Positions 11,879 to 24,493 of a DNA stretch of 64,000 nucleotides are shown piece after piece; within the stretch, counting starts at the first letter, position 1; each line of letters begins with the position of its first letter. The stretch comes from Bradyrhizobium japonicum USDA 6 (GTDB taxonomy: Bacteria > Pseudomonadota > Alphaproteobacteria > Rhizobiales > Xanthobacteraceae). The notes under the pieces are model-generated. The model saw nothing but the letters and a program-made list of their open reading frames with translations, was not told the origin of the DNA and did not search any database. The translations under genes and the position numbers were made by a program. The stretch spans positions 3,078,001-3,142,000 of the forward strand of contig NC_017249.1 of NCBI RefSeq assembly GCF_000284375.1, in the 5' to 3' direction.

Positions 11879-13000
11879 GGCCTGTTGCGTTATCAGCTCT
11901 TGAGGCTGAAGACGTCAGGAACGAAGGCCTTGGTCCCGGCAATTGCCTGCCAAGATCTGTAGTTGTCGCCCTCGGAGGGTGGCTCACGCGGCGATTGTGG
12001 CCCACCGCCTCATGTTGAAGGCGATCGCGGCGAGCACGACTTGCCCGGTCGCCTTGATCAGACCGACGTAGCGGATGCAGGTCAGCCGCATGCGGCGTTT
12101 GAGAGTAGCGAAGGTGGTCTCGACCTGGGCTCGGCGGCGCGCGATGAGGAGGTTGTAGCGTTTGAGCCTGGGCGGCAGTTCCGGATGATGTCTGTTGGGC
12201 CGACGAGCGATGCGGGGTTTCTTGCCCTCCGCCTTCAGCCGGGCCCGTCGGGCATGGGTGTCGTAAGCCGCATCGGCCCACACCGCAGCTTCATCGCCCC
12301 GGATCAAAGCGTCCGCAGGTGTCGTATCGTTGACGTTAGCGGGTGTGGTCAGCACCGCGCGGATCAAGCCGGATCCTTCGTCCACACCCACATGGGCCTT
12401 GTAACCGAAGGTCGAGCCGCTTTTGCCCTGCCGTTTGGCAAACCGGGCATCAGGGTCGTTTGAGGGGCGATCCTCCTTGGGCGGAGCCGAGACTGCCTGG
12501 ATCAAGGTCGCATCCAGCATCGTGCCGCGCTTGAGGATCACGCCAGCATTCTCAAGCTGACGATCCAATTCGCCAAACAGCTTCTCCAGCAGGCCCTGTT
12601 CAACGAGCTGGTTCCGGAAGCGGTTCAGGACCGTGTGGTCGGGCGTCGCATCCTCAAGGCTCAAACCGACGAAGCGCTTGAACGACAACCGGTCGCCCAG
12701 CGCTTCCTCGAGTTCGCGCTCCGAAAGACCATACAGCGACTGCAACAGCACAGCACGAAACAGCACCAACACCGGATAGCCTGGTCGACCGGGGCTCCCT
12801 TCATCCCGCAAATGGCCGATCAGCTTCTCGAACCGGTACCACTTGACCAGGCCAGCCAGCCGATCCAGCGCCGCATTGGCGCCGGCCCCCTTCGGCATCA
12901 GCGCTTCCACAAAGCTCGGCTGTCCCGTCCGCTTGACCGCCATCGCTACCCTCCAAGGCTTTGCCCTAGGGAATCACAATTGACGAATTACGCAACAGCC
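11879..13000 (-). mobile_element. IS5-family insertion sequence, about 1.1 kb
   Basis: The element carries one intact transposase gene and has matching ends: GGCCTGTTGCGTTAT inward from the left and GGGCTGTTGCGTAAT inward from the right (on the opposite strand). The exact boundary is uncertain by a few bases because the flanking host hairpin is itself an inverted repeat that merges with the terminal repeats. A target duplication cannot be separated from that palindrome by eye. The intact gene and ends suggest recent insertion. Confidence 0.82.
11984..12943 (-). CDS. IS5-family transposase, apparently intact
   Basis: The 319-residue DDE transposase starts at MAVKRTGQPSF and carries a DUF772-type N-terminal domain (PVLVLFRAVLLQSLYGLSERELEEAL). 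The catalytic triad is D144 (TMLDATL), D224 (WADAAYD) and E275 in the YREK-like block RRRAQVETTFATLKRRM. There is no interruption, so the enzyme is probably functional. It is the only cargo of the element. Confidence 0.93.
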   Translation of the reverse strand: MAVKRTGQPSFVEALMPKGAGANAALDRLAGLVKWYRFEKLIGHLRDEGSPGRPGYPVLVLFRAVLLQSLYGLSERELEEALGDRLSFKRFVGLSLEDATPDHTVLNRFRNQLVEQGLLEKLFGELDRQLENAGVILKRGTMLDATLIQAVSAPPKEDRPSNDPDARFAKRQGKSGSTFGYKAHVGVDEGSGLIRAVLTTPANVNDTTPADALIRGDEAAVWADAAYDTHARRARLKAEGKKPRIARRPNRHHPELPPRLKRYNLLIARRRAQVETTFATLKRRMRLTCIRYVGLIKATGQVVLAAIAFNMRRWATIAA

Positions 13001-13037: not shown

Positions 13038-14348
13038 TCACGCCCCGTAGGTCGAACCCTTTGGCAGCGGAAACACCGGGTCCTGCGTGCGGATGTTCGT
13101 CGGCCACACCACCGAGATGTGCTCGCCGGCGTTCTGCATCACCACCGGTGTCGAGCGCTCGTTCTGGCCTGACATCGGCGTGCCCGGCGGGAAGAACTTG
13201 ACGCCGTAGCCCTGGATGGTGCCGCCGGCGGGAATGTCGACGTCGAGCGCGGCCTTGCGGATGGCCTCGGGATCGAAGCTGCCGTATTTCTCCTTGGCGA
13301 CCGGCAGCACGTTGTTGAGCAGCAGCCAGGTCTGGTTGAAGCCCATCGAGCAGTGTGGCGGCACTTCGGTCGCGCCGGTCTTGGCCTTGTAGCGCGTGAC
13401 CATGGCGTTGGTCAGATCGCCGATGCCCGGTGCGAGCTTTGCGGGATCGAGCAATTGCGCCGGCACCGGATCGATGTTGCAGAAATTGTCGATGTCGGCG
13501 CCGAAGGTCGCGCGCAGCTTGTCGAGCTGGCTGTAGCCGGCGCCGGCGCCGAACAGCATCTTGAAGCGCAATCCGCTCTCGCGCGCCTGGCGCAGGAACA
13601 GGGTGATGTCGGGGTTGTAACCGGCATGCGAGATCACGTCGGCCTTGGCGCGCTTGATTTTCGTGACGAGCACCGAGAGGTCGGGCGCCGAGGCGGAGTA
13701 GCCTTCGCGCAGCACCACCTGGATGCCGGCCTGCTTGGCGTAGGCCTCGTCGGCCGCCGCGACGCCGACGCCATATGGGCCGTCCTCGTGGATCAGCGCG
13801 ACCTTGACGTCCTTCGGATCCATGCCGAGCTTGCCTTGCGCATGCTCGGCGAGGAAGCTCGCGAAGGCCTGGCCATACTGGTCGGAATGGATCTGCGCGC
13901 GAAACACGTATTGCAGGTTCTTGTCCTTGAACACGGCGGTCGAGACCGCGGTCGTGATCCAGAGGATCTTCTTCTGCTGCTCGACCTTGGCCGCGAGTGG
14001 CACCGCATGCGAGCTCGCATAGACGCCGTTGAGGATGTCGATCTTTTCCTGACTGATCAGGCGTTCGGCCTCGTTGATCGCAACGTCGGGTTTGCTCTGG
14101 GAATCCGCGGCGACCGGAACAATCTTGGTCTTGCCGCCGACACCGCCCTTTTCGTTGACGAGATCGATCGCGATCTGCGCGCCGATTGACGAGGCGACCG
14201 AGCCGCCGGCGGCGAAGGGGCCGGTGAGGTCGTAGATCAGGCCGATGCGCAAATTCTCGGCCTGCGCCTGGGCCCGGGTCCAATCAAGGCTGAGTGCGGC
14301 GGCGGCAGCCGCCGAGCTCTTCAGCAACTGCCTGCGTGAAGTCGGCAT
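13038..14348 (-). CDS. ABC transporter substrate-binding protein, branched-chain-amino-acid (LivK/Peripla_BP_6) type
   Basis: The 436-residue protein has a Tat-like leader (TSRRQLLKSSAAAAAALSL) and a type-I periplasmic fold: NLRIGLIYDLTGPFAAGG, then AERLISQEKIDILNGVYASS and DVKVALIHEDGPYGVG. The ligand could be an amino acid, amide or other small polar compound. ATG 14348 is preceded by GGGAGGAAAGG, a strong ribosome-binding site. No permease or ATPase adjoins it; the Liv-type genes at 24.5-27.8 kb are the nearest of this class. It is convergent with the oxidoreductase gene across the insertion sequence. Confidence 0.88.
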   Translation of the reverse strand: MPTSRRQLLKSSAAAAAALSLDWTRAQAQAENLRIGLIYDLTGPFAAGGSVASSIGAQIAIDLVNEKGGVGGKTKIVPVAADSQSKPDVAINEAERLISQEKIDILNGVYASSHAVPLAAKVEQQKKILWITTAVSTAVFKDKNLQYVFRAQIHSDQYGQAFASFLAEHAQGKLGMDPKDVKVALIHEDGPYGVGVAAADEAYAKQAGIQVVLREGYSASAPDLSVLVTKIKRAKADVISHAGYNPDITLFLRQARESGLRFKMLFGAGAGYSQLDKLRATFGADIDNFCNIDPVPAQLLDPAKLAPGIGDLTNAMVTRYKAKTGATEVPPHCSMGFNQTWLLLNNVLPVAKEKYGSFDPEAIRKAALDVDIPAGGTIQGYGVKFFPPGTPMSGQNERSTPVVMQNAGEHISVVWPTNIRTQDPVFPLPKGSTYGA

Positions 14349-14511: not shown

Positions 14512-15900
14512 TCAGAGAAACGGCGATGCCAGGGCCGGAGTTTCGACCAGCGCGTGAGCGGCATACTCGAGCGCAGATCTAATCTGTGCTCGAGTGGAAG
14601 GGCCGCAGATGCATACTCTGATGGCCTCGGGGGGCGGATCACTCACGACAAAGGCGTCACTTGCGACCACGCCGATGCCGGTCTGCCGCATATGCTCCAC
14701 GAAAGCCGAGCGCCTCCAGGGCGTGGGCAGCGCGACCCACAGGTTGAAGCTGAGAGGATCGCCACGGTAGGACCCCTTGGGCAGGATTTCGGCCGCGAGC
14801 TTCTGCCGCGCCGAGGTCTCGGCGCGGATGAACCGCAACATCGTGTCCGCGGTGCCGTCTTCGATCCAGCGCGTCGCGATCGCCACGGTGAGGGGGGATG
14901 CCATCACCGTCGCCGAGCGGAGCGCCGAGGCAAACGGCCAGGCCGAGCGCGTATCGGGCACGACGACATAGGCCGTGCGCAAGCCTGCTCCGATGCATTT
15001 CGCCAGTCCCGCGACGTGCCAGGTCAGATCGGGCGCGATGGCAGCGAAGGGCGCGTGGCCGTGGCCGTGCTCGGGAATGAAGCCATAGGCATCGTCCTCG
15101 ATGATCGGCAGCTTGAAGCGTCGTGCGATCGCAACGATCTCTCGCCGTCGAGAGTCCGGAATCGTCAGGGTCGTCGGATTCTGCAGCGTCGGATTGAGGT
15201 AGATGGCCTTGGGCTTCAGCTTCTTGCAGGAATCGGTCAGCGCCTGCGGCTCAATGCCGTCGTCATCCATCGGCAAGCCGACGAGGGTGATGCCGAGCTG
15301 CGCGGCGATGGACCTGATCCCGGGATAGGTGATGGCCTCGCACAGCACCACCTCGCCTGCCTTCGCAAGGATAGAGAGGATGCCGAGCAGCGCCGGATGG
15401 GCCCCCGGCGAGACAAAGATGCGGCTTTGTGCCGGCACCAGCGCACGGCGGCCGAGCCAGCTCGACGCAGCATCCTTGTCGGCCTGCGTGCCGCCAAAGC
15501 CCTGGTAGCGCAGCAGTGGAACAATGTCGCGCATCACAAGCTCGGCGCCTGCCTGCATGCGCTCGATCAACTCGGGATCATCAGGCTCGGGCGGCAGGTT
15601 CATCGACAGGTCGACGGGGCGAGGCGGAAAGATCGCTGCTGAGCGCCGCGGCCGCGGCTTGTCGCGAACGAAGGTTCCCTGTCCGACCTTGGATTCAATC
15701 AGGCCGCGCTTCCGGGCTTCGACATAGCCGCGCGCGACGGTGGTGAAATCGACATCGAGCCGCTTGGCCAGCTTCCGCTGTGGCGGCAGGCGGTCGCCGA
15801 TCACAAGCCGTCCCGCGGCGATATCGTCGGCAATTGCGTCTGCGATGGCGAGATAGCGCGGCTTGTCGCTGTTCGAGAGATCGGGTCGCCAGTCGGCCAT
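14512..15900 (-). CDS. MocR-family transcriptional regulator (GntR HTH fused to aminotransferase fold)
   Basis: The 462-residue protein starts with a winged-helix domain of the GntR family (residues 14-78, RYLAIADAIADDIAAGRLV and FTTVARGYVEARKRGLI). A fold-type-I PLP domain follows, with the substrate-loop asparagines (YLNPTLQNPTT), D269/D270 (IIEDDAYG) and the Schiff-base lysine K301 (HVAGLAKCIGAGLRTAY). MocR proteins use PLP or an adduct as effector and usually control a neighbouring gene set. It is transcribed divergently from the Nit1C-type cluster, with a repeated 20-bp element in between, so it is the obvious candidate regulator. Confidence 0.92.
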   Translation of the reverse strand: MADWRPDLSNSDKPRYLAIADAIADDIAAGRLVIGDRLPPQRKLAKRLDVDFTTVARGYVEARKRGLIESKVGQGTFVRDKPRPRRSAAIFPPRPVDLSMNLPPEPDDPELIERMQAGAELVMRDIVPLLRYQGFGGTQADKDAASSWLGRRALVPAQSRIFVSPGAHPALLGILSILAKAGEVVLCEAITYPGIRSIAAQLGITLVGLPMDDDGIEPQALTDSCKKLKPKAIYLNPTLQNPTTLTIPDSRRREIVAIARRFKLPIIEDDAYGFIPEHGHGHAPFAAIAPDLTWHVAGLAKCIGAGLRTAYVVVPDTRSAWPFASALRSATVMASPLTVAIATRWIEDGTADTMLRFIRAETSARQKLAAEILPKGSYRGDPLSFNLWVALPTPWRRSAFVEHMRQTGIGVVASDAFVVSDPPPEAIRVCICGPSTRAQIRSALEYAAHALVETPALASPFL

Positions 15901-15926
15901 AGCTCAGTTCCGGTAAGTTACGTCAG

Positions 15927-16136
15927 CATAATTGACTGTATATTGTTGCAAACGTCGAAGCAATTGTATCGCGTATTTTTGGCTGCTTGAGGAGGCGGTT
16001 CGTCTGAGCGCATTGCACACCGATCGGGCGCGCTGCCCAGCATTTTTCAGGCACTATTTTTCAGGCACAACGCAAGCATATCCAAATCCAGTCAGGTCTC
16101 CATTCAACATTGAATGCATAATTGAATGTAAATTGT
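15927..16136. promoter_or_regulatory. Two direct copies of a 20-bp element between the MocR gene and the nit cluster
   Basis: CATAATTGACTGTATATTGT (15927-15946) and CATAATTGAATGTAAATTGT (16117-16136) agree at 18 of 20 positions and are in the same orientation. The first is 27 bp upstream of the MocR start, the second about 95 bp upstream of the first nit gene. The second copy is preceded by another ATTGAATG (16109-16116), giving a 12-bp-spaced tandem, and by ATTCAA-CA-TTGAAT (16102-16115). Direct repeats are the usual recognition form for MocR dimers. The AT-rich composition contrasts with the surrounding coding DNA. Confidence 0.6.
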
Positions 16137-16231
16137 ATGGTTTGATGATTTGTCGTGCAGAAGGCTGCTTGGCACATTGATTGCAAAACCTGATCCCGAT
16201 CCGGGAGGCCGGACGTGAACAGGAGGTGTCT

Positions 16232-16714
16232 ATGCCAGCAGTGAACATTCCCGCGCGTCAGAAGGGCGACTTTCTTGTCGACTACGAAGAGAAGGTTTTC
16301 GAGGACGTCAAAGCAAAGCCGGGTGAGAAGGCGCTGGTCACCTTCCACACCGTCGCGTTCGAGGGCTCCATCGGCCTCGTCAACATTCTCCAGGCGCTGC
16401 GCCTGAAGCGTAAGGGCTTTGAGACGTCGGTTCTGCTTTACGGTCCCGGTGTCACGCTCGGCATTCAGCGCGGCTTCCCGAAGATCGGCGACGAAGCCTT
16501 CCCCGGCGCGCAGAACTTCAACAACCAGCTCGCAAAATTCATGGATGAGGGCGGCAAGGTCTATGCCTGCCGGTTCGCGCTGCAGGCGCTTTACGGCCAT
16601 GGCGAGCCTTCGCTCATTCCCGGCATCCGGCCGATCAATCCGCTCGATGTGCTCGACCTCATCCTGCTTCACCGCAGGGACGACGCGTTCATGATCCACA
16701 CCTGGACCGTCTGA
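16232..16714 (+). CDS. nitB: MSMEG_0572/Sll0783 family nitrogen-starvation response protein (first gene of Nit1C cluster)
   Basis: The 160-residue cytoplasmic protein has no signal peptide. Features of the Sll0783 family are [47 protein letters not shown] and [20 protein letters not shown]. The family marks Nit1-type nitrilase clusters and is linked to nitrogen starvation in cyanobacteria. ATG 16232 is preceded by AACAGGAGGTGTCT, so I reject the longer upstream reading. It leads the eight-gene operon. The biochemical role is unknown; the fold resembles DsrE-like small proteins, which is only a guess. Confidence 0.9.
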
Positions 16715-16751
16715 CTTCGGTTGTCTCGCGCGACGGACGAGGGAGAATACA

Positions 16752-17807
16752 GTGACAGCGAAACGCACGATCAGGGCCGGCGCGATTCAGATCGCGCCGG
16801 ATCTGGATACGCCGACCGGAACGGTCGACCGGATCCTGGCGGCCATCGCAGAGGCGGCGGGCAAGGGAGTTCAGTTCGCCGTTTTTCCAGAGACGTTCGT
16901 TCCCTGGTATCCCTATTTCTCCTTTGTCCGTCCGCCGGTCCTCAGCGGCGCTGAACACATCCAGCTCTATGACAACGCCGTCGTCGTGCCTGGTCCCGTC
17001 ACAGATGCCGTTGCGCAAGCGGCGAAGCGCCACGGCATGGTGGTGGTGCTCGGCGTCAACGAGCGCGATCACGGCTCGCTTTACAACACCCAGCTCGTGT
17101 TCGACGCGAACGGCGCGCTCGTCCTGACGCGACGCAAGATCACGCCGACCTTTCACGAGCGAATGATCTGGGGGCAGGGCGATGGCGCCGGCCTGAAGGT
17201 GGTCGAGACTGCGGTCGGCCGTGTCGGCGCGCTGGCCTGCTGGGAGCATTACAACCCGCTCGCCCGCTACGCGCTGATGGCCCAGCACGAGGAAATCCAT
17301 GCGGCCCAGTTTCCGGGTTCGCTGGTCGGACAGGTCTTTGCCGACCAGATCGAGGTGACGATCCGGCATCATGCGCTGGAAAGCGGATGCTTCGTCGTCA
17401 ATGCCACCGGCTGGCTGACCGAGGAGCAGATTGCGAAAATCTCGCCGGAGGAAGGCCTGCGCAAAGGCCTGCGCGGCGGCTGCATGACGGCGATCGTCTC
17501 ACCGGAAGGCAATCATCTGGTGCCGCCGCTGACCAGCGGCGAGGGCATCCTTGTCGCCGATCTCGATCTCGCACTGATCACCAAACGCAAGCGGATGATG
17601 GATTCTGTCGGCCACTACGCCCGGCCCGAGCTGCTTTCGCTGGTGCTGAACGACCGACCCGCGCGTCCGATGCACGGCTTTCACCCGAACCGCCTCATGC
17701 CCATTCCGGGAGACCAATCAGATGAGACCGCAGATGCCGCAACCCAAGGCGATCCCGACCGAGCAGCTGATCAACGAGTTGCAGTCCTTCGGAGTCCGGC
17801 TCGCTGA
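16752..17807 (+). CDS. nitC: Nit1-subfamily nitrilase
   Basis: This 351-residue carbon-nitrogen hydrolase converts a nitrile to acid plus ammonia. The catalytic residues are visible: E47 (FPETF), K129 ([11 protein letters not shown]) and C163 ([12 protein letters not shown]), with the second glutamate E136. [18 protein letters not shown] is typical of true nitrilases. It starts with GTG at 16752 after GAGGGAGAATACA. Its 3' end overlaps the radical SAM gene by 86 bases, which adds a low-complexity tail of about 30 residues. In the Pseudomonas Nit1C cluster the orthologue is linked to cyanide assimilation; the physiological substrate here is not shown by sequence. Confidence 0.93.
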
Positions 17808-18852
17808 TCCCAAGACCGGGGGAACGAGCCGCCGTGGCGGCGCCGGCCCGTCGGATCACACGCCGTTCACGATCGACGGCGCGACCGTGATGATTCCGGT
17901 CCACAACGCGCCTGCCTTCGAGAGCCCTTATCTCGTCGAGCGTCCCGACGAGGCCGGGCGAAGCCGCATCTCGCGCGACGGCGTGGTGCTCGCGGACGTC
18001 TCGTTTCCGTTACGACCCAAATTCTACGACCGCGCCACCGAGGACGGCATCCCCTATTGGAAGATCGCGACCCTGCATGGGCGCGACGTTCTCGCCACCA
18101 CCGTACTCCAAACCTGCATTCGCTACCAGAGTCGCACCAAGACCTGCCGGTTCTGCGCCATCGGCCAGTCACTCGCAGCCGGGCGTACGGTCGAGCGCAA
18201 GACGCCGGCACAGCTCGCCGAAGTGGCCAAGGCGGCCGTCGAGCTCGACGGCATCAGGCATATGGTGATGACCACGGGCACGCCGCACACGTCCGATCGC
18301 GGCGCCGGCATCCTTGCGGAGAGCGCGCAGGCCGTCAAAGCCGCTGTCGACCTGCCGATCCAGGCGCAATGCGAGCCACCGGACGATTTTGCCTGGTTCC
18401 AGCGCATGAAGAGTTCAGGGGTCGACGCGCTCGGCATGCATCTGGAGGTCATCGGTCCTGCCGTGCGGCAAAGGATCATGCCAGGCAAGGCGCAGGTCTC
18501 GATCGAGCACTACATGGAAGCGTTCGCCGCGGCCGTGCCGGTCTTTGGCCGCGGTCAGGTCTCGACCTATATTTTGGCTGGCCTTGGCGACGAGCCTTCC
18601 GAGATTCTCGCGCTGTCGCGTCGGCTCATCGATATCGGCGTCTATCCCTTCGTCGTGCCGTTCGTGCCGATCGCCGGCACGCCGCTGGAGAGCCATCCGA
18701 CGCCGTCTCCAGGGTTCATGCATCAGATCCTGCGTCCGCTCGCCGAGATGCTGCGCGCCGGCGGCCTGCGCGCCACCGATATCAAGGCAGGCTGCGGCAA
18801 ATGCGGCGCCTGCTCGGCCCTGTCCACTTACGAACGCGGAGCACGTGCATGA
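17722..18852 (+). CDS. nitD: MSMEG_0568-family radical SAM protein
   Basis: The 376-residue enzyme belongs to the radical SAM group that always accompanies Nit1 nitrilases. Cluster cysteines are C132, C142 and C145 ([15 protein letters not shown]), a CX9CX2C spacing wider than the common CX3CX2C. Further features are [31 protein letters not shown] and a C-terminal [10 protein letters not shown] motif that could hold a second cluster. The start lies inside the nitrilase gene with GGGAGACCAATCAG before ATG 17722. It overlaps the next gene as ATGA. The reaction is unknown. Confidence 0.92.
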
Positions 18853-19397
18853 TCTTTGAGCCATTCAAGCCGTTCGTCGCGCCGGAATTCCAGGTGAAGT
18901 TCGCAACCGAAGCCTGGGAGCGTGCCGCCGCCGCAGCCCTGCGTCGCAAGGTCTTCTGCGAAGAGCAGGGCGTGTTTGCGGGTGATGATCGCGACGCGGT
19001 CGACGACGTCGCCATCCCGCTCGTAGCCGTGTCGCTGCTCGGCGTCGCCGAGGATGACGTCGTCGGCACCGTGCGCATTCACGCCGATGACCACGAGGCG
19101 GATGTGTGGTGGGGCTCCCGCCTTGCCGTTGAAAAAGGTTATCGCCGGCTCAGCGCGGTTGGCGCCGGCCTGATCCGGCTCGCCGTCTCCTCAGCCCATG
19201 CGCGCGGTTGCCGGCGCTTTCTTGCCAATGTGCAAAGTCAGAACGCGCTTCTGTTCCAGCACATGCATTGGCGTTCGCTCGGCGAATTCGAGCTCCATGG
19301 CCGGCCGCACCATCGCATGGAGGCCGATCTCGACCACTACCCGCCGTTCCGGACGCCTGAAACCGGCTTCCTGTCACTCGCAAAGCTGGCGGCCTGA
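18849..19397 (+). CDS. nitE: MSMEG_0567/Sll0786 family GNAT N-acetyltransferase
   Basis: The 182-residue GNAT-fold protein has RRKVFCEEQGVFAGDDRD at the N-terminal strand-helix, VVGTVRIHADDHEADVWWGS, the acetyl-CoA loop region RLAVEKGYRRLSAVGAGLI, and FLANVQSQNALLFQHMHW near the end. Members of this family are found only in Nit1 clusters, often as part of a fusion with the AIR-synthase-like protein encoded next. The ATG overlaps the radical SAM stop. The acceptor is unknown; acylation of an amine made by the nitrilase pathway is a reasonable idea. Confidence 0.9.
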   Translation: MIFEPFKPFVAPEFQVKFATEAWERAAAAALRRKVFCEEQGVFAGDDRDAVDDVAIPLVAVSLLGVAEDDVVGTVRIHADDHEADVWWGSRLAVEKGYRRLSAVGAGLIRLAVSSAHARGCRRFLANVQSQNALLFQHMHWRSLGEFELHGRPHHRMEADLDHYPPFRTPETGFLSLAKLAA

Positions 19398-19399
19398 TC

Positions 19400-20395
19400 A
19401 TGCTGACGGACGCCGCTCTCACAAACCTCGCCGAGACGCTCCGCAAAAGCCGCGGCATCGCCGCCAAGGCCGACATTGCGGCTGTCGCGGCCACGCTCGA
19501 CCTCTCGAGCGGCGATGCCATCGCGGTGGGGGACGATTGCGCGGCGATCCCGGAGGGCGATGGCTATACCCTGTTCGCCATCGAAGGCTTCATGAACGAA
19601 TTCGTCGCCGCCGACCCCTGGTTTGCAGGCTGGTGCGGCGCCATGGTCAACATCTCGGACGTCGCGGCAATGGGCGGACGGCCGACGGCCATTGTCAATG
19701 CGATCTGGTCCAATGGTGCGGATAAGGCCGCGCCCATTCTCGAAGGATTGAAAGCTGCTGCGAAGACTTTCGGTGTGCCCGTCATCGGCGGCCACACCAA
19801 TGTGCGCAGCAACCAGAGCCAGTTTGCCGTCGCGATCCTGGGTCGTGCGAGGCGGCTTCTCACGAGCTTCGACGCCAGGCCCGGCGACAAGCTCATTGCG
19901 GCGATCGATCTGCGCGGCCGCTACCGCGAGCCGTTCGCGAACTGGGAGGCAGCAACCGACGCGCCCGCGGAGCGGCTGCGCGACGATCTGGAGATCCTGC
20001 CGTCGATCGCCGAGGCGGGGCTCGCACTCGCAGCCAAGGACATCAGCCAGGGCGGCATCGTCGGGACCGCGGCGATGCTGGCCGAGTGCTCGCAGGTCGC
20101 CATCACGCTGGACGTCGAGGCGGTTCCGATTCCTGCCGGCGCGCCGCTCGAACGCTGGCTCCTGACATTCCCGAGCTTCGGCTATCTCCTGTCGGCGAAG
20201 TCCGAAGACGTCGACGAGATACTGTCGCGCTTCCAGCGGCGCGGCATTGCGGCAGCCGCGATCGGAGACGTCGCTGCGGGGACAAGCGTCGACATTCGCG
20301 CCGCTTCCGGTCGCGCAACGGTCTGGGACTTCGCGGCGCAGCCCCTGATCGGATGTACGCCAGGGCAGGGTTATCGGCAGCGGAGCGTGGCATGA
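19400..20395 (+). CDS. nitF: Sll0787-family AIR-synthase-like protein
   Basis: The 331-residue protein has the two-domain PurM/SelD/ThiL ATP-binding fold: AVGDDCAAI (the G-D-D-A-A-type N-terminal strand), MVNISDVAAMGGRPTAIVNAIW, and PVIGGHTNVRSNQSQFAVAILG in the first half, and AAKDISQGGIVGTAAMLAE in the second. Relatives phosphorylate or activate substrates with ATP. It begins 2 bases after the GNAT stop and overlaps the glycosyltransferase by 4. Its place in every Nit1 cluster implies an ATP-dependent step in processing the nitrogen compound. Confidence 0.9.
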   Translation: MLTDAALTNLAETLRKSRGIAAKADIAAVAATLDLSSGDAIAVGDDCAAIPEGDGYTLFAIEGFMNEFVAADPWFAGWCGAMVNISDVAAMGGRPTAIVNAIWSNGADKAAPILEGLKAAAKTFGVPVIGGHTNVRSNQSQFAVAILGRARRLLTSFDARPGDKLIAAIDLRGRYREPFANWEAATDAPAERLRDDLEILPSIAEAGLALAAKDISQGGIVGTAAMLAECSQVAITLDVEAVPIPAGAPLERWLLTFPSFGYLLSAKSEDVDEILSRFQRRGIAAAAIGDVAAGTSVDIRAASGRATVWDFAAQPLIGCTPGQGYRQRSVA

Positions 20396-21558
20396 GCGGC
20401 GGCTCGTCAAGGCTTCGCATCGCGATCCTCACGCACTCGACAAATCCACGAGGCGGCGTGGTGCACGCGCTCGCGCTCGCGGACGCCCTGGCACATCTCG
20501 GACTTCGGCCGGTCGTGCACGCGCCCGACCCAGCAGGCAAAGGCTTCTTCCGCCGCGGCGTCGCGGCGACGCGCTCCGTGCCTGCATCGCCCGTCTCGGG
20601 CGACGTCGTCGCGATGGTCGAAGCGCGCATCGCCGACTATGTCCGGCATTTCGAGGATGTGGCCAATCGGCAGTACGACGTCTTCCACGCCCAGGACGGC
20701 ATCTCCGGTAATGCGCTCGCGACGCTGAAGCAGCGCGGCCTGATCCAACGCTATGTCCGCACCGTTCATCACATCGATGCATTCAAGGACGAGCGGCTCT
20801 GCGAACTCGACCGTCGCTCGATCGTCCACGCTGACAGCCTGTTCGTCGTCAGCCGGTTCTGGCAGGAGCACTTGAAGGCGGAGATGTCCCGCTCTGCAAT
20901 GTTGGTCGGCAATGGCGTCGACGCGGGGCGATATTCGCCCATCGCGGGTGCCGACGACCAGGCGCTGCGCGCCCGGCTCGGCCTTCGCACAGGCCCGATC
21001 CTGTTGTCGATCGGCGGCGTCGAGCAGCGCAAGAATGCGCTCGGCATTCTCGAGGCGTTCCGGCAGGTGTACGCCGTACATCGATCCGCGCAGCTCGTCA
21101 TCGCCGGCGGGGCTTCTCTGCTGGACCATGGTCTCTATCGGCAACAGTTCGAGGCACGGCTGCGCGATGCGGGACTGCCTGTTGGTGCGGTGATCGAGAC
21201 GGGTCCGCTGATCGATGCCGACATGCCATCGCTCTTTCGCCTCGCGGATGTATTGTTGTTCCCGTCCTTGCGCGAAGGTTTTGGCCTGGCTGTGCTCGAA
21301 GCGATGGCCAGTGGCGTGCCGGCCGTGGTCTCGCATATCGCACCGTTCACGGAATATCTCGGCCCGGACGATGCTGCCTGGTGCGATCCGCATCACGCAG
21401 GCTCGATCGCGGATGCCGCCCTCAGTGCCCTCGCCGAGCCCCTGCGTTCGCGCCTGATTGCGAATGGCGCGAGAGTCGCCCGGCATCATGACTGGAGCCG
21501 CACCGCCACGGCACACATGGCGACCTATCAGGATATGCGCGAGGTGCACTATGCCTGA
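20392..21558 (+). CDS. MSMEG_0565-family glycosyltransferase (GT4 type)
   Basis: This 388-residue GT-B fold enzyme has an N-terminal acceptor half (RIAILTHSTNPRGGVVHALALADAL, DVFHAQDGISGNAL) and a C-terminal nucleotide-sugar half (ILLSIGGVEQRKNALGILEAF, DVLLFPSLREGFGLAVLEAMASG). The last contains the E-X7-E motif of retaining GT4 enzymes. ATG 20392 overlaps the AIR-like stop. A glycosyltransferase in this cluster suggests that a glycosylated, perhaps sugar-protected or exported, metabolite is formed or handled; the acceptor is unknown. Confidence 0.9.
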   Translation: MSGGSSRLRIAILTHSTNPRGGVVHALALADALAHLGLRPVVHAPDPAGKGFFRRGVAATRSVPASPVSGDVVAMVEARIADYVRHFEDVANRQYDVFHAQDGISGNALATLKQRGLIQRYVRTVHHIDAFKDERLCELDRRSIVHADSLFVVSRFWQEHLKAEMSRSAMLVGNGVDAGRYSPIAGADDQALRARLGLRTGPILLSIGGVEQRKNALGILEAFRQVYAVHRSAQLVIAGGASLLDHGLYRQQFEARLRDAGLPVGAVIETGPLIDADMPSLFRLADVLLFPSLREGFGLAVLEAMASGVPAVVSHIAPFTEYLGPDDAAWCDPHHAGSIADAALSALAEPLRSRLIANGARVARHHDWSRTATAHMATYQDMREVHYA

Positions 21559-21838
21559 GATGCACTTCCACGTGCGCTGGCCCGATGAGCGGATCGAGGT
21601 CTGCTATTCGCCCTCGCTCGTCATCAAGGATCATTTCGCCGCCGGCACGACCTACGCGCTCGACGACTTTCGCGAGCGCAGCCGCGTTGCGCTGACGATT
21701 GCGGCCGAGCGAGTCCGAGAGAAGTACGGCTTTCTCTGCTCGCGCGCGCTCGGGCAACTCGCACGGATCGAGGCGACAGCCGTGCAGTTCGAGGCCACGC
21801 CTGGCGCTTCCGTCACTATCGTCTCATTCGAAGAATAG
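21551..21838 (+). CDS. MSMEG_0570-family small nitrogen-starvation response protein
   Basis: The 95-residue protein (PEMHFHVRWPDERIEVCYSP, IKDHFAAGTTYALDDFRERSR) is typical of the MSMEG_0570 family restricted to Nit1 clusters. It is soluble with no recognisable catalytic motif. ATG 21551 lies 8 bases inside the glycosyltransferase end, so the two are coupled. In the Pseudomonas nomenclature it would sit at the position of the small hypothetical member of the cluster. Function unknown. Confidence 0.87.
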   Translation: MPEMHFHVRWPDERIEVCYSPSLVIKDHFAAGTTYALDDFRERSRVALTIAAERVREKYGFLCSRALGQLARIEATAVQFEATPGASVTIVSFEE

Positions 21839-21850
21839 CAGGAGCTGATC

Positions 21851-23155
21851 ATGTCTGACCTTCACACTCACTATCCGGTCGTCGTGATCGGCGGCGGCCA
21901 GGCCGGTCTTGCCATGAGCGCGCAACTCAAGGCGCACGGCATCGAGCATGTCGTGCTGGAGAAAAATACGATCGCGCATTCCTGGAAGACGCAGCGTTGG
22001 GACGCGTTTTGCCTCGTGACGCCGAACTGGCAATGCCGGCTTCCCGGCTTTCCTTACGCCGGCAGCGATCCGCATGGCTTCATGCTGCGTGACGAGATCG
22101 TCACTTACATCGAGGATTTCGCCAGGCACATCGATGCGCCGGTCCGCGAGGGCGTCGCCGTCACACGCCTCAGGCAATCCGGTCATGGCTTCATGCTCGA
22201 GACGACGATCGGCGAGATCGCTGCTGGCAGCATCGTGCTGGCCGTCAGCGGATATCACGTCCCGAAAGTGCTGCCGTTTGCAGACCGGCTCGATCCGTCG
22301 ATCACGCAGATCCACTCTTCAGCCTACCGCAATCCGGATCAGTTGCCGCCGGGCGAAATCCTCGTGGTTGGAAGCGGACAATCGGGCTGCCAGATCGCCG
22401 AAGACCTGCATCTGGCCGGCCGCAAGGTGCATCTCGCCGTCGGCAGCGCGCCGCGGTGCCCGCGCTTCTATCGCGGCCGGGACGCCGTCGACTGGCTCGA
22501 CGATCTCGGGCAGTACGACTTGCCCGTCGACAAGCATTCGCTAAAGGAAGGCGTTCGCAAGAACGCCAACCATTACCTGACCGGACGGGACGGCGGCCGC
22601 GACATCGACCTGCGCAGGTTCGCGCTTGAGGGCATGAAGCTCTACGGTCGTCTCAAGGACGGCCGCGGGACGTCCTTGCAGCTTGGCGATGATCTCCAGG
22701 TCAATCTCGACAATGCCGATCGGGTCTACAACGGCATCTGCCGAATGATCGACGAGCACATCGCAAGGAATAGAATCGCCGCGCCCGTGACGCCTCACTA
22801 TGCGCCCGTGTGGTCCCCCACTGCGGTGCCCACGGAGCTCGATCTCGCAACGAGCGGCATCAGCAGCATCGTCTGGACGACCGGCTTCCGGTCCGACTGG
22901 TCCTGGGTCGACCTGCCGATGTTCGATGGCACGGGCTATCCAACCCACAAGCGGGGCATCACGTCGATCGACGGTGCCTATGTGGTCGGCCTGCCGTGGC
23001 TCTACACCTGGGGCTCTGGTCGGTTCGTCGGCATCGGGCGTGATGCAGAGTTTGTTGCAGACCACATCATGGAGCGATCGAGCGCATCGCATGCCGACGC
23101 GTATCGAGCCGACCGACGCGAGCTCTCGCAAGATACCGCGCGAGAGGCTGTTTAG
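21851..23155 (+). CDS. nitH: MSMEG_0569-family flavin-dependent oxidoreductase (flavin monooxygenase-like)
   Basis: The 434-residue flavoprotein has an N-terminal FAD site (VVIGGGQAGLAMSAQL), the FMO-like CLVTPNWQCRLPGFPY segment, and an internal NADPH site (ILVVGSGQSGCQIAEDL), with a late IVWTTGFRSDWSW. Two Rossmann motifs indicate a class B-type monooxygenase. It is the last gene of the Nit1C-type operon, 12 bases after the preceding stop. It probably oxidises the substrate or an intermediate; in cyanotrophic bacteria the whole cluster is required, but the order of reactions is not established. Confidence 0.92.
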   Translation: MSDLHTHYPVVVIGGGQAGLAMSAQLKAHGIEHVVLEKNTIAHSWKTQRWDAFCLVTPNWQCRLPGFPYAGSDPHGFMLRDEIVTYIEDFARHIDAPVREGVAVTRLRQSGHGFMLETTIGEIAAGSIVLAVSGYHVPKVLPFADRLDPSITQIHSSAYRNPDQLPPGEILVVGSGQSGCQIAEDLHLAGRKVHLAVGSAPRCPRFYRGRDAVDWLDDLGQYDLPVDKHSLKEGVRKNANHYLTGRDGGRDIDLRRFALEGMKLYGRLKDGRGTSLQLGDDLQVNLDNADRVYNGICRMIDEHIARNRIAAPVTPHYAPVWSPTAVPTELDLATSGISSIVWTTGFRSDWSWVDLPMFDGTGYPTHKRGITSIDGAYVVGLPWLYTWGSGRFVGIGRDAEFVADHIMERSSASHADAYRADRRELSQDTAREAV

Positions 23156-23201: not shown

Positions 23202-23225
23202 GATGCCCGGGACAGGCCCGGGCAT
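23202..23225. terminator. Convergent hairpin between the nit operon and the amino-acid ABC locus
   Basis: ATGCCCGGG and CCCGGGCAT form a perfect 9-bp stem with a short loop, 48 bases after the nit operon stop and 27 bases before the end of the oppositely transcribed binding-protein gene. There is no clear T-run on either strand. Confidence 0.65.
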
Positions 23226-23251
23226 CATGCGTTCAAGGTGTCTTCCGGCGG

Positions 23252-24493
23252 TTACTGCGACAGCTTCACGAAGCTCGGAAACTTCAGCTTGCCTTCGGCG
23301 ATCTTCTCGGGCCAGACCACGACCTGCTTGCCGTCCTGCCACTGGAAGACGAGACCGGAGACTGTGGTGGGACCGGACTTGATGCCGTGGGTGAACTCGT
23401 CGTCCTTGCCGTAGAACTGGATGCGGCCGATCGTGCCCTCGTAGTCGGTCTTCTCCAGTTCAGCGACCATCTTGTCGGGATCGGTCGAGCCCGCGCGCTT
23501 GATCGCGTCGGTGATGAAGTAGACCTCGTCATAGGCGGTGTAGCCGGTATAGGCCGGCGGCGCGCCGAACTTGGCCTTGAACGCGGCCGCGAACGGCTTC
23601 GTCTTGGAGGTCACGGCGACGTCGGGCGTCGCAACCGCGAGCGACGGCACGCCGTCGGCGGCGCCATTGGTGTCCTTCCAGAAGGTCGGGCTCAGCGCCT
23701 GCGCGCTGATGCCGAACATCGGGATCGGCACCTGCTGGTTCTTCCACTGCACCGTCGGCTGCACGCCGACATGCGAGATGCCGGTCACGATCACGTCGGG
23801 CTTCTTGCCCTCGATGTTGTTGAAGATCGGCGTGAAGTCGGTGGTGTCGGGCGAGAAGCGCACATGCTCCACGACCTTCAGGCCCGCCTTGGGCAGGCAG
23901 GCCTCGTAGCCGACGTCGAGCGGCTTGGTCCAGGCCGCGTCCTCGCTCATGATCGCAACGGTCTTGAACTTGAGCTTGTCGACCAGGAGATCCTTGGCGG
24001 CATCACAGACGAGCTGGGCCTGGGCCGCCGAGGTCAGGTAGCCGTGGAAGGTGTACTTGTTCTTCTCATAGTCGTTGTGGATCGCCTTGGTGATCTCGTT
24101 GGAGGCCGCGCCCGGCGTGATCAGCGGCATCTTCAGCCGCGCCGCCCAGGGTTCGAGCGCCAGCACGACCTCGCTGATATAGCTCGCGATCACGGCGGAC
24201 ACCTTGTCCTCGCTCACCGCGCGCTGGAACGCTCGCACCGAGTCGGCCGACGAGCTCTTGTTGTCATAGGTGACGATCTCGACCTTGCGGCCGAGAATGC
24301 CGCCCTTGGCATTGATCTCGTCGGCGGCGATCTGCGCGCCACCGGGGGTGGCGGCACCGGCGATCGACTGCACTTCGGCGATGACACCGATCTTGATCGG
24401 ATCGTTCGACTGCGCGTAGGCGGGCGCGGCGAGGCACAGGGCCAGCGCCGAGGCGAGAAGGAGGCTGCTGCTTGGATTCGTCGATGGTCGCAT
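23252..24493 (-). CDS. Branched-chain-amino-acid-type ABC substrate-binding protein (paralogue A)
   Basis: The 413-residue protein has a signal peptide ending at APAYAQ and the Peripla_BP_6 fold: IKIGVIAEVQSIAGAA, GAQIAADEINAKGGILGRKVE, then VIASYISEVVLALEPWAARLK and GYTAYDEVYFITDAIKRAGS. The first-lobe ligand sites are strongly conserved with the paralogue at 27919-29163, suggesting similar ligands. It ends the five-gene transport unit read from 29163 to 23252. The ligand may be an amino acid or amide; position next to the nit cluster allows a nitrogen compound related to that pathway. Confidence 0.9.
   Translation of the reverse strand: MRPSTNPSSSLLLASALALCLAAPAYAQSNDPIKIGVIAEVQSIAGAATPGGAQIAADEINAKGGILGRKVEIVTYDNKSSSADSVRAFQRAVSEDKVSAVIASYISEVVLALEPWAARLKMPLITPGAASNEITKAIHNDYEKNKYTFHGYLTSAAQAQLVCDAAKDLLVDKLKFKTVAIMSEDAAWTKPLDVGYEACLPKAGLKVVEHVRFSPDTTDFTPIFNNIEGKKPDVIVTGISHVGVQPTVQWKNQQVPIPMFGISAQALSPTFWKDTNGAADGVPSLAVATPDVAVTSKTKPFAAAFKAKFGAPPAYTGYTAYDEVYFITDAIKRAGSTDPDKMVAELEKTDYEGTIGRIQFYGKDDEFTHGIKSGPTTVSGLVFQWQDGKQVVVWPEKIAEGKLKFPSFVKLSQ

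Follow-up and report, generated by a model that had tools for sequence, protein, structure and literature searches.

A 64,000-nucleotide stretch of the Bradyrhizobium japonicum USDA 6 genome (positions 3078001–3142000 of its one 9,207,384-bp contig, hereafter the window) carries a complete nitrilase gene cluster of the Nit1C type, made up of the seven-gene core nitBCDEFGH and a glycosyltransferase gene, together with a divergently read gene for a regulator of the MocR type. Here, we describe three features of such clusters that are new: a sigma-54 promoter element before nitB, oriented tandem repeats in the region between mocR and nitB, and a locus in which an activator with an AAA+ domain stands in the place of MocR. 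MocR is nearly always found beside nitB in the proteobacterial loci examined. We propose that the Nit1C operon may be controlled by two keys, with sigma-54 and NtrC signaling nitrogen shortage and MocR signaling a ligand, and consider the chances of this proposal to be about even. An earlier note on this DNA had placed the cluster under the control of the divergent MocR protein, which agrees with the direct-repeat motif of MocR type found at the divergent promoter; MocR as sole controller is not supported, since the sigma-54 element requires an AAA+ activator.

Promoter elements between mocR and nitB

The -24/-12 signature of sigma-54 promoters is TGGC-N7-TTGC. A strict form of this pattern, TGGC[AC]-N6-TTGC within 150 bp of nitB, is matched in the window by TTGGCACATTGATTGCA (16169..16185, + strand), from which the operon is likely transcribed, judging by the match and its conservation. 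Motif discovery, carried out on 47 non-redundant MocR-nitB regions against dinucleotide shuffles, placed the strict element in 37 of the 47 regions, always on the + (coding) strand and 38–95 bp before nitB. Outside these regions there are 33 matches in 1,681 kb (0.0029 per 150 bp), so that about 0.14 would be expected in 47 stretches. None of 18 control loci lacking MocR (17 cyanobacteria and 1 Rhodococcus, after removal of L102, with 263 bp upstream, and L088) has the strict element, while 15 of 19 loci outside the motif discovery do and two more (L198 and L204) have a near match; for 18 of them the DNA identity to the nearest locus used does not exceed 84%, L201 being a 97% copy of L100. The genome encodes two copies of rpoN over the cut-off.

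Upstream of the sigma-54 element lie three direct repeats of 11–12 bp (ATTGAATGCATA, ATTGAATGTAA, and ATTGTATG; 16109..16139, + strand), which we predict to be the MocR operator and which the MocR encoded next door likely binds. They are preceded by an inverted half-site (CCATTCAA; 16100..16107, - strand) that is kept with them in close relatives, and in an alignment of the window with 18 such relatives the half-site, the three repeats, and the sigma-54 element follow each other in this order, with a separate conserved block next to the start of mocR. This block contains a further repeat (GCATAATTGACTGTATATTGT; 15926..15946, + strand), 26–46 bp from the mocR start and 90% identical to 16116–16136, which by its position and likeness is likely an autoregulatory site. 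The box TTGANYGCAT occurs in 31 of the 47 regions (shuffles 0.55, maximum 3), and two boxes 11–12 bp apart are found in 20 regions on the + strand and in none on the - strand (shuffles 0.10). In 32 of the 37 regions anchored by a sigma-54 element a box is located within 120 bp before the -24 element, with starts that fall, in 5-bp bins, at -65 (9), -60 (7), -55 (1), -50 (10), -40 (14), and -30 (7); the boxes of the window start 61, 49, and 38 bp upstream of it. The tandem pattern is unique to this site in the 9.2-Mb genome (two overlapping matches; reversed control 0). Direct repeats spaced by at least one helix turn are a common layout of MocR operators (PMC5320631). EnuR, a MocR protein that represses ectoine catabolism, binds sites that overlap its sigma-70 core promoter (PMC8739950), whereas the Nit1C repeats are clear of the core promoter, which favors help over block without proving it.

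The sigma-54 polymerase requires an AAA+ activator (PMC3844500). MocR has no AAA+ domain, which suggests that the activator is encoded elsewhere and is most likely NtrC, of which the genome has one gene over the cut-off. The NtrC consensus is GCAC-N7-GTGC. The window has a site one mismatch away from it, GCAC-N7-GGGC at 16013..16031 (+ strand), a tentative enhancer. Sites with at most one mismatch are present in 24 of the 47 regions (shuffles mean 9.7, maximum 15) and exact sites in four, all from Burkholderiales (L095, L098, L101, and L104; shuffles mean 0.5, maximum 3). The enrichment supports NtrC for some of the regions and is suggestive for the window. NifA was rejected as the activator, its TGT-N10-ACA pattern being found in 1 of 47 regions, below the shuffles (3.4), and nowhere in the window.

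Linkage of MocR to nitB across genomes

The distribution of Nit1C is patchy, as indicated by the low numbers of genomes with nitB (TIGR04044) over the cut-off: 13 of 146 in the genus, 10 of 385 in the class, and 16 of 398 in the phylum, with the B. japonicum genome counted each time. Where the cluster is present, MocR adjoins nitB in all 20 other alphaproteobacterial loci fetched, and in 60 of the 80 best loci, out of at least 540, of a wide genome scan for NitB. Eighteen of the 20 scan loci without MocR are cyanobacterial, one of them with just 263 bp upstream; the remaining two are a Phycisphaerales contig with no more than 483 bp of sequence ahead of nitB and a broken Caballeronia cluster. 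The search was also run from the side of MocR: among 17 genomes tested, drawn from 51 Rhizobiales with an EnuR-like MocR, eight carry nitB, always with MocR as its divergent neighbor, and nitB was not found in the other nine. Of the later loci, 18 of 19 have MocR (8 of 8 from the MocR-side search, 9 of 10 drawn from the phylum, and L033). An Acetobacter locus (L057) has a distant MocR (37%) in the same orientation as nitB, and no MocR accompanies the cluster on a Rhodococcus plasmid (L058). In total 107 stretches were collected, 85 of them with MocR, some being the same contig from two collections (e.g., L038 and L061). The earlier note had made its case depend on MocR neighbors in related genomes; the linkage is there and reaches far beyond the Bradyrhizobiaceae, to alpha-, beta-, and gammaproteobacteria and one Verrucomicrobia metagenome-assembled genome (MAG).

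The tenth locus of the phylum draw (L204/L207) encodes, at the place and in the orientation of MocR, a protein of 648 amino acids (aa) that combines a pair of PAS domains with the AAA+ domain of a sigma-54 activator and a Fis helix-turn-helix; it stands before a sigma-54-like promoter with one mismatch. NitA of Pseudomonas, the regulator of the Nit1C cluster there, is described as being of the Fis-family sigma-54 activator type (PMC11049912). Ahead of its nit promoter, this genome has three TACGA-N4-TCGT repeats (L207, 9733–9954), which are possibly enhancer sites of the AAA+ regulator.

A Caballeronia stretch (L129, 9998–12542), in which nitB, nitE, and nitH alone were found and MocR is missing, has an upstream sigma-54 element and boxes that persist. 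Plasmid records with a match to nitB number 515, and Klebsiella accounts for 374 of these, which indicates that Nit1C genes travel on plasmids.

The MocR protein and its ligand pocket

The MocR of the window (14512..15900, - strand; Pfam GntR and Aminotran_1_2) is a full-length protein in which a GntR winged helix is fused to a fold-type-I aminotransferase domain with the pyridoxal phosphate (PLP) lysine K301. Its best NCBIfam match is EhuR/EnuR (NF052286), with 427 bits under a cut-off of 480. For the tree, near-copies were removed by shared 4-mers, leaving 53 Nit1C-linked MocRs, 48 of them from the 107-stretch set; 47 of these 48 have the divergent region used for motif discovery, the MocR of L057 being read in the direction of nitB. 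A quick maximum-likelihood tree unites 52 of the 53 proteins in a single clade (Shimodaira-Hasegawa-like approximate likelihood-ratio test, SH-aLRT, 99), and the 53rd, from Acetobacter, forms a long branch. The clade, the Acetobacter protein, and a paralogue from the B. japonicum genome join 17 of 18 EnuRs at an SH-aLRT of 81, which is not decisive; "EnuR" here, as for the pocket residues, is a label given by score alone to any protein that exceeds the NF052286 cut-off. The distances between MocRs correlate with those of NitD (r 0.79), NitF (r 0.82), NitH (r 0.64), and NitC (r 0.42; n = 39), each correlation exceeding the top of 999 permutations.

The residues that bind the ligand of EnuR were assigned by docking (PMC8739950). 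In an alignment of 84 Nit1C MocRs, which includes near-copies and excludes the 401-aa MocR of L110, the docked residues N241, K301, F417, and R428 are each kept in 84 of 84 proteins. C430 is kept in 81, and position 99 is S or T in all 84, this column being equated with Ser104 of EnuR through the alignment of other EnuRs, without the EnuR of R. pomeroyi itself. R428 was found in just 2 of the 6 distant MocRs of the genome. This pocket of EnuR type would fit an amino-acid-like ligand. The pair Met100-Asn101 is present in 84 of 84 Nit1C MocRs vs. 0 of 18 EnuRs; Asn101 also occurs in all eight EnuR-like paralogues without a link to Nit1C, one of which has Met100 too, and Asn101 is therefore no signature of Nit1C.

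Ectoine was rejected as the regulated pathway, given that the MocR is below the EhuR cut-off, that the EnuR palindrome is missing, and that no ectoine hydrolase gene eutD over the cut-off is found in the genome (the best match scores 23 bits, the cut-off being 613). A second EnuR-like MocR is encoded at 2893892–2895229 of the genome; it is 42% identical and groups beside the Nit1C clade, and inspection by eye of the open reading frames (ORFs) of at least 200 aa near it (L172/L193) revealed no nitrile gene.

Models for the control of the cluster

In the two-key proposal, sigma-54 RNA polymerase would wait at the promoter at 16169–16185 until an AAA+ activator, most likely NtrC as the key for nitrogen limitation, opens it. 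MocR on the upstream boxes would be the second key, with a PLP-reactive ligand in its pocket causing a change of shape that permits activation, and MocR would act on its own gene through the mocR-side repeat. The substrate of the Nit1C enzymes would then be a nitrile or cyanide-derived compound, with ammonia released through NitC. More specifically, and at less than even odds, the Nit1C MocR could be a ligand-gated, PLP-binding, non-AAA+ partner of sigma-54, seated on tandem repeats that lie after an enhancer for nitrogen control and before the -24/-12 promoter, and licensing activation only with its ligand, which might be an amino acid derived from a nitrile or an adduct of PLP with cyanide. 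A precedent for a second, non-AAA+ activator at a sigma-54-dependent gene is BosR, which acts on direct repeats and can be required at Borrelia rpoS (PMC3037356).

Several observations weigh against the two-key proposal. The strict sigma-54 motif is missing in 10 of the 47 regions, of which eight have a near match and L053 and L131 have none; among the later loci, L197 and L202 have no sigma-54 motif, and L198 and L204 have a near match alone. Strict tandem boxes are missing in 27 of the 47 regions, the loci L053 and L057 (Acetobacter) have MocR with neither motif, and the repeats could be bound by another protein. The enrichment of NtrC sites is just about 2.5-fold, and the genome's own copy is imperfect. 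Furthermore, EnuR, the nearest characterized relative, is a repressor (PMC8739950), which means that MocR may block rather than help.

Such a block could take the form of a brake, in which MocR keeps the enhancer-bound activator from reaching the sigma-54 polymerase and lets go only when it binds an amine or amino acid. We regard this as somewhat unlikely: it agrees with the joint branch with EnuR in the tree (SH-aLRT 81), with the largely kept docked residues, and with what is known of EnuR, a repressor with acetyldiaminobutyrates as ligands (PMC8739950), whereas the Nit1C repeats are upstream of the core promoter and not over it, and the EnuR palindrome ATTGTN6ACAAT is present in 0 of the 47 regions. 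That MocR would have no part in the regulation and sits there by shared ancestry alone is highly improbable. Gene order can persist by vertical descent, and the MocR distances do track those of NitD and NitF, but the linkage extends over three proteobacterial classes and a Verrucomicrobia MAG, the oriented repeats are conserved in the shared promoter region, and at one locus (L204/L207) another regulator substitutes at the same place.

As to the signal, the earlier note had proposed that PLP binding implies an amine or amino-acid-like nitrile (e.g., 3-cyanoalanine) as the inducer, and not cyanide. Such an inducer is quite conceivable, though we would put it a little short of even: the EnuR-type pocket is kept, and in the MocR cases studied a primary amine of the inducer reacts with PLP (PMC8739950). 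Counting against it, Met100-Asn101, which is not found in the EnuRs, suggests a ligand unlike theirs (the Asn101 of this pair not being specific to Nit1C). The argument from PLP against cyanide is itself weak, because MpaR, whose architecture is that of a MocR protein, controls ccoN4 in the response to cyanide, with PLP-CN proposed by the authors as the signal (PMC10790758). The Nit1C MocR could likewise detect cyanide as an adduct of its PLP; nit1C is reported, with reference to other work, to be induced by cyanide and required for growth on it (PMC9716671), and it has been tied experimentally to cyanide assimilation in Pseudomonas, where the cio cluster of P. pseudoalcaligenes, which is linked to cyanide, also contains a mocR gene (PMC11049912). 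Nevertheless, we consider a cyanide sensor unlikely, as the Nit1C MocRs group with EnuR and invariably keep R428, which would be superfluous for a cyanide adduct and is present in only two of the six distant MocRs compared, all from this genome.

Gene content of the Nit1C cluster

Eight families of the Nit1C neighborhood pass their NCBIfam cut-offs in one tight operon on the + strand (16232–23155). It begins, behind a Shine-Dalgarno-like CAGGAGG (16220..16226, + strand), with nitB (16232..16714), of the MSMEG_0572/Sll0783 family (TIGR04044, 282 bits against a cut-off of 110). There follow nitC (16752..17807), with a GTG start, for a Nit6803-family nitrilase of subfamily 1 (TIGR04048, 570, cut-off 503); nitD (17722..18852), for a radical SAM protein of the MSMEG_0568 family with a CX9CX2C motif (TIGR04043, 600, cut-off 304); nitE (18849..19397), for a GNAT N-acetyltransferase (TIGR04045, 232, cut-off 68); and nitF (19400..20395), for an AIR-synthase-like protein (TIGR04049, 462, cut-off 321). 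An accessory gene for an MSMEG_0565-family glycosyltransferase (20392..21558; TIGR04047, 481, cut-off 260) precedes nitG (21551..21838), of the MSMEG_0570 family (TIGR04042, 127, cut-off 80), and nitH (21851..23155), for a flavin-dependent oxidoreductase (TIGR04046, 647, cut-off 498). From nitB to nitF the genes are joined by a 37-bp gap, overlaps of 86 and 4 bp, and a 2-bp gap, and from nitF over the glycosyltransferase gene and nitG to nitH by overlaps of 4 and 8 bp and a 12-bp gap; the seven core families thus form a contiguous, operon-like run. NitC retains E47, K129, and C163, which we take to be its catalytic residues, as well as E136, and its closest match in the Protein Data Bank (PDB) is 3wuy (E 1.4e-151).

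The earlier note was right about the coordinates, the gene content, and the intact catalytic residues, and inexact in speaking of eight defining families, because the published core comprises seven genes, among which some lineages carry an inserted glycosyltransferase (Podar et al., 2005; PMC1199592). In our set, 23 of the 39 non-redundant clusters that are complete have the glycosyltransferase.

Between nitH and the convergent gene is a hairpin, GATGCCCGGG-ACAGG-CCCGGGCATC (23202..23226), found by eye, which may be a terminator and has no T run. Genes for binding proteins of the branched-chain type flank the cluster on both sides (13038–14342 and 23252–24493) and were not counted in the unit, since they recur near it only in close Bradyrhizobium loci and at varying distance; elsewhere there were two matches of 23–24%. 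Beyond the upstream one is a transposase-like ORF (11984–12943), judged from the sequence alone.

Hints of a longer pathway

The fold of NitB, the cysteines of NitD, and a gene after nitH hint at a pathway longer than nitrile hydrolysis. The model of NitB has a DsrE/DsrF-like fold (PDB 3mc3, E 4.4e-05) at low confidence (mean predicted local distance difference test, pLDDT, 61), and the protein has an invariant cysteine in 19 of 19 aligned rows. The CX9CX2C motif of NitD is shared by 104 of the 106 NitD sequences, a set that includes near-copies. A homologous protein is encoded after nitH in 10 of 48 loci, the single member scanned being of the LnmK/Pnap_2097 type. It is a serious possibility, though one we would not favor, that Nit1C is biosynthetic, with a product that helps nitrogen-starved cells and nitrile hydrolysis as one internal step. 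The radical SAM, GNAT, AIR-synthase-like, and flavin enzymes are beyond what nitrile hydrolysis requires, and the protein encoded after nitH and an AMP-binding protein in Acetobacter would be in line with this, but the genetic tie to cyanide assimilation in Pseudomonas (PMC11049912) is not, and the extra genes are not in the window.

The cysteine spacing CX9CX2C is unusual for radical SAM proteins, and the NitD of the window has a CX2CX2C at its C-terminus as well. Genes of LnmK/Pnap_2097 type follow nitH on plasmids of Agrobacterium vitis and Tabrizicola (L055 and L060), and the AMP-binding protein is encoded at the Acetobacter cluster L057. NitG, despite a confident model (pLDDT 94, 14 sequences), has no PDB match at E 0.001 and possibly represents a new fold. 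Below the cut-offs, several of the proteins resemble sulfur or selenium families, with NitB being DsrE-like, the radical SAM protein similar to LipS2/LipA, the AIR-synthase-like protein to SelD, the glycosyltransferase to BshA/MshA/SenB, and the flavoprotein to YpdA, and these likenesses could hint at a thiol-type product.

Known systems and implications

The cluster of the window resembles the Nit1C described by Podar et al. (2005) and the nitBCDEFGH genes of Pseudomonas in its seven core families, its Nit6803-type nitrilase, and its divergent regulator; the regulator of the latter is a Fis-family sigma-54 activator, NitA, in contrast to the MocR of the window, which also has the extra glycosyltransferase. 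The nearest MocR group, EnuR/EhuR/EutR of ectoine catabolism, shares the PLP lysine and most docked residues with the Nit1C MocR, but has a palindromic site, ectoine genes, and a sigma-70 promoter, whereas the Nit1C MocR is below the family cut-off and has tandem repeats, Nit1C genes, and a sigma-54 element. MpaR of Pseudomonas aeruginosa, likened here by its description, has the GntR and aminotransferase-like architecture and the cyanide link in common, but controls ccoN4 and its neighbors. The arrangement of BosR, Rrp2, and sigma-54 at Borrelia rpoS is similar in having a second non-AAA+ activator on direct repeats at a sigma-54-dependent gene, although BosR is a Fur/PerR homologue with no relation to MocR.

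Among the open-licence PMC papers listed, we found none that joins MocR to Nit1C or to sigma-54 promoters; the matches on GabR deal, by their titles and abstracts, with other proteins of that name. The main text of a survey of MocR regulons (PMC5320631) contains no nitrilase, sigma54, RpoN, or NtrC, and its supplementary tables may list these regulators; likewise, the main texts of two RpoN/NtrC papers (PMC13207237 and PMC5491218) make no mention of nitrilase.

A MocR protein paired with sigma-54 would be an unusual regulatory design. If the proposed partnership is real, this would be the first MocR protein to work on sigma-54 promoters, and it would define a group of orthologues, spread across the proteobacteria, that either replaced a dedicated sigma-54 activator or was itself replaced by one. 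Descriptions of Nit1C date back to 2005, and no agreed pathway was found; its role in cyanide metabolism rests on a few Pseudomonas strains with a different regulator. The conserved promoter layout, which recurs in many proteobacteria, predicts that the cluster is on at nitrogen shortage and that a PLP-reactive ligand is relevant, both of which can be tested, and the ligand of one purified protein could point to the substrate or product of the pathway. Should the layout work as predicted, the Nit1C pathway would run only under nitrogen shortage and in the presence of a particular small molecule.

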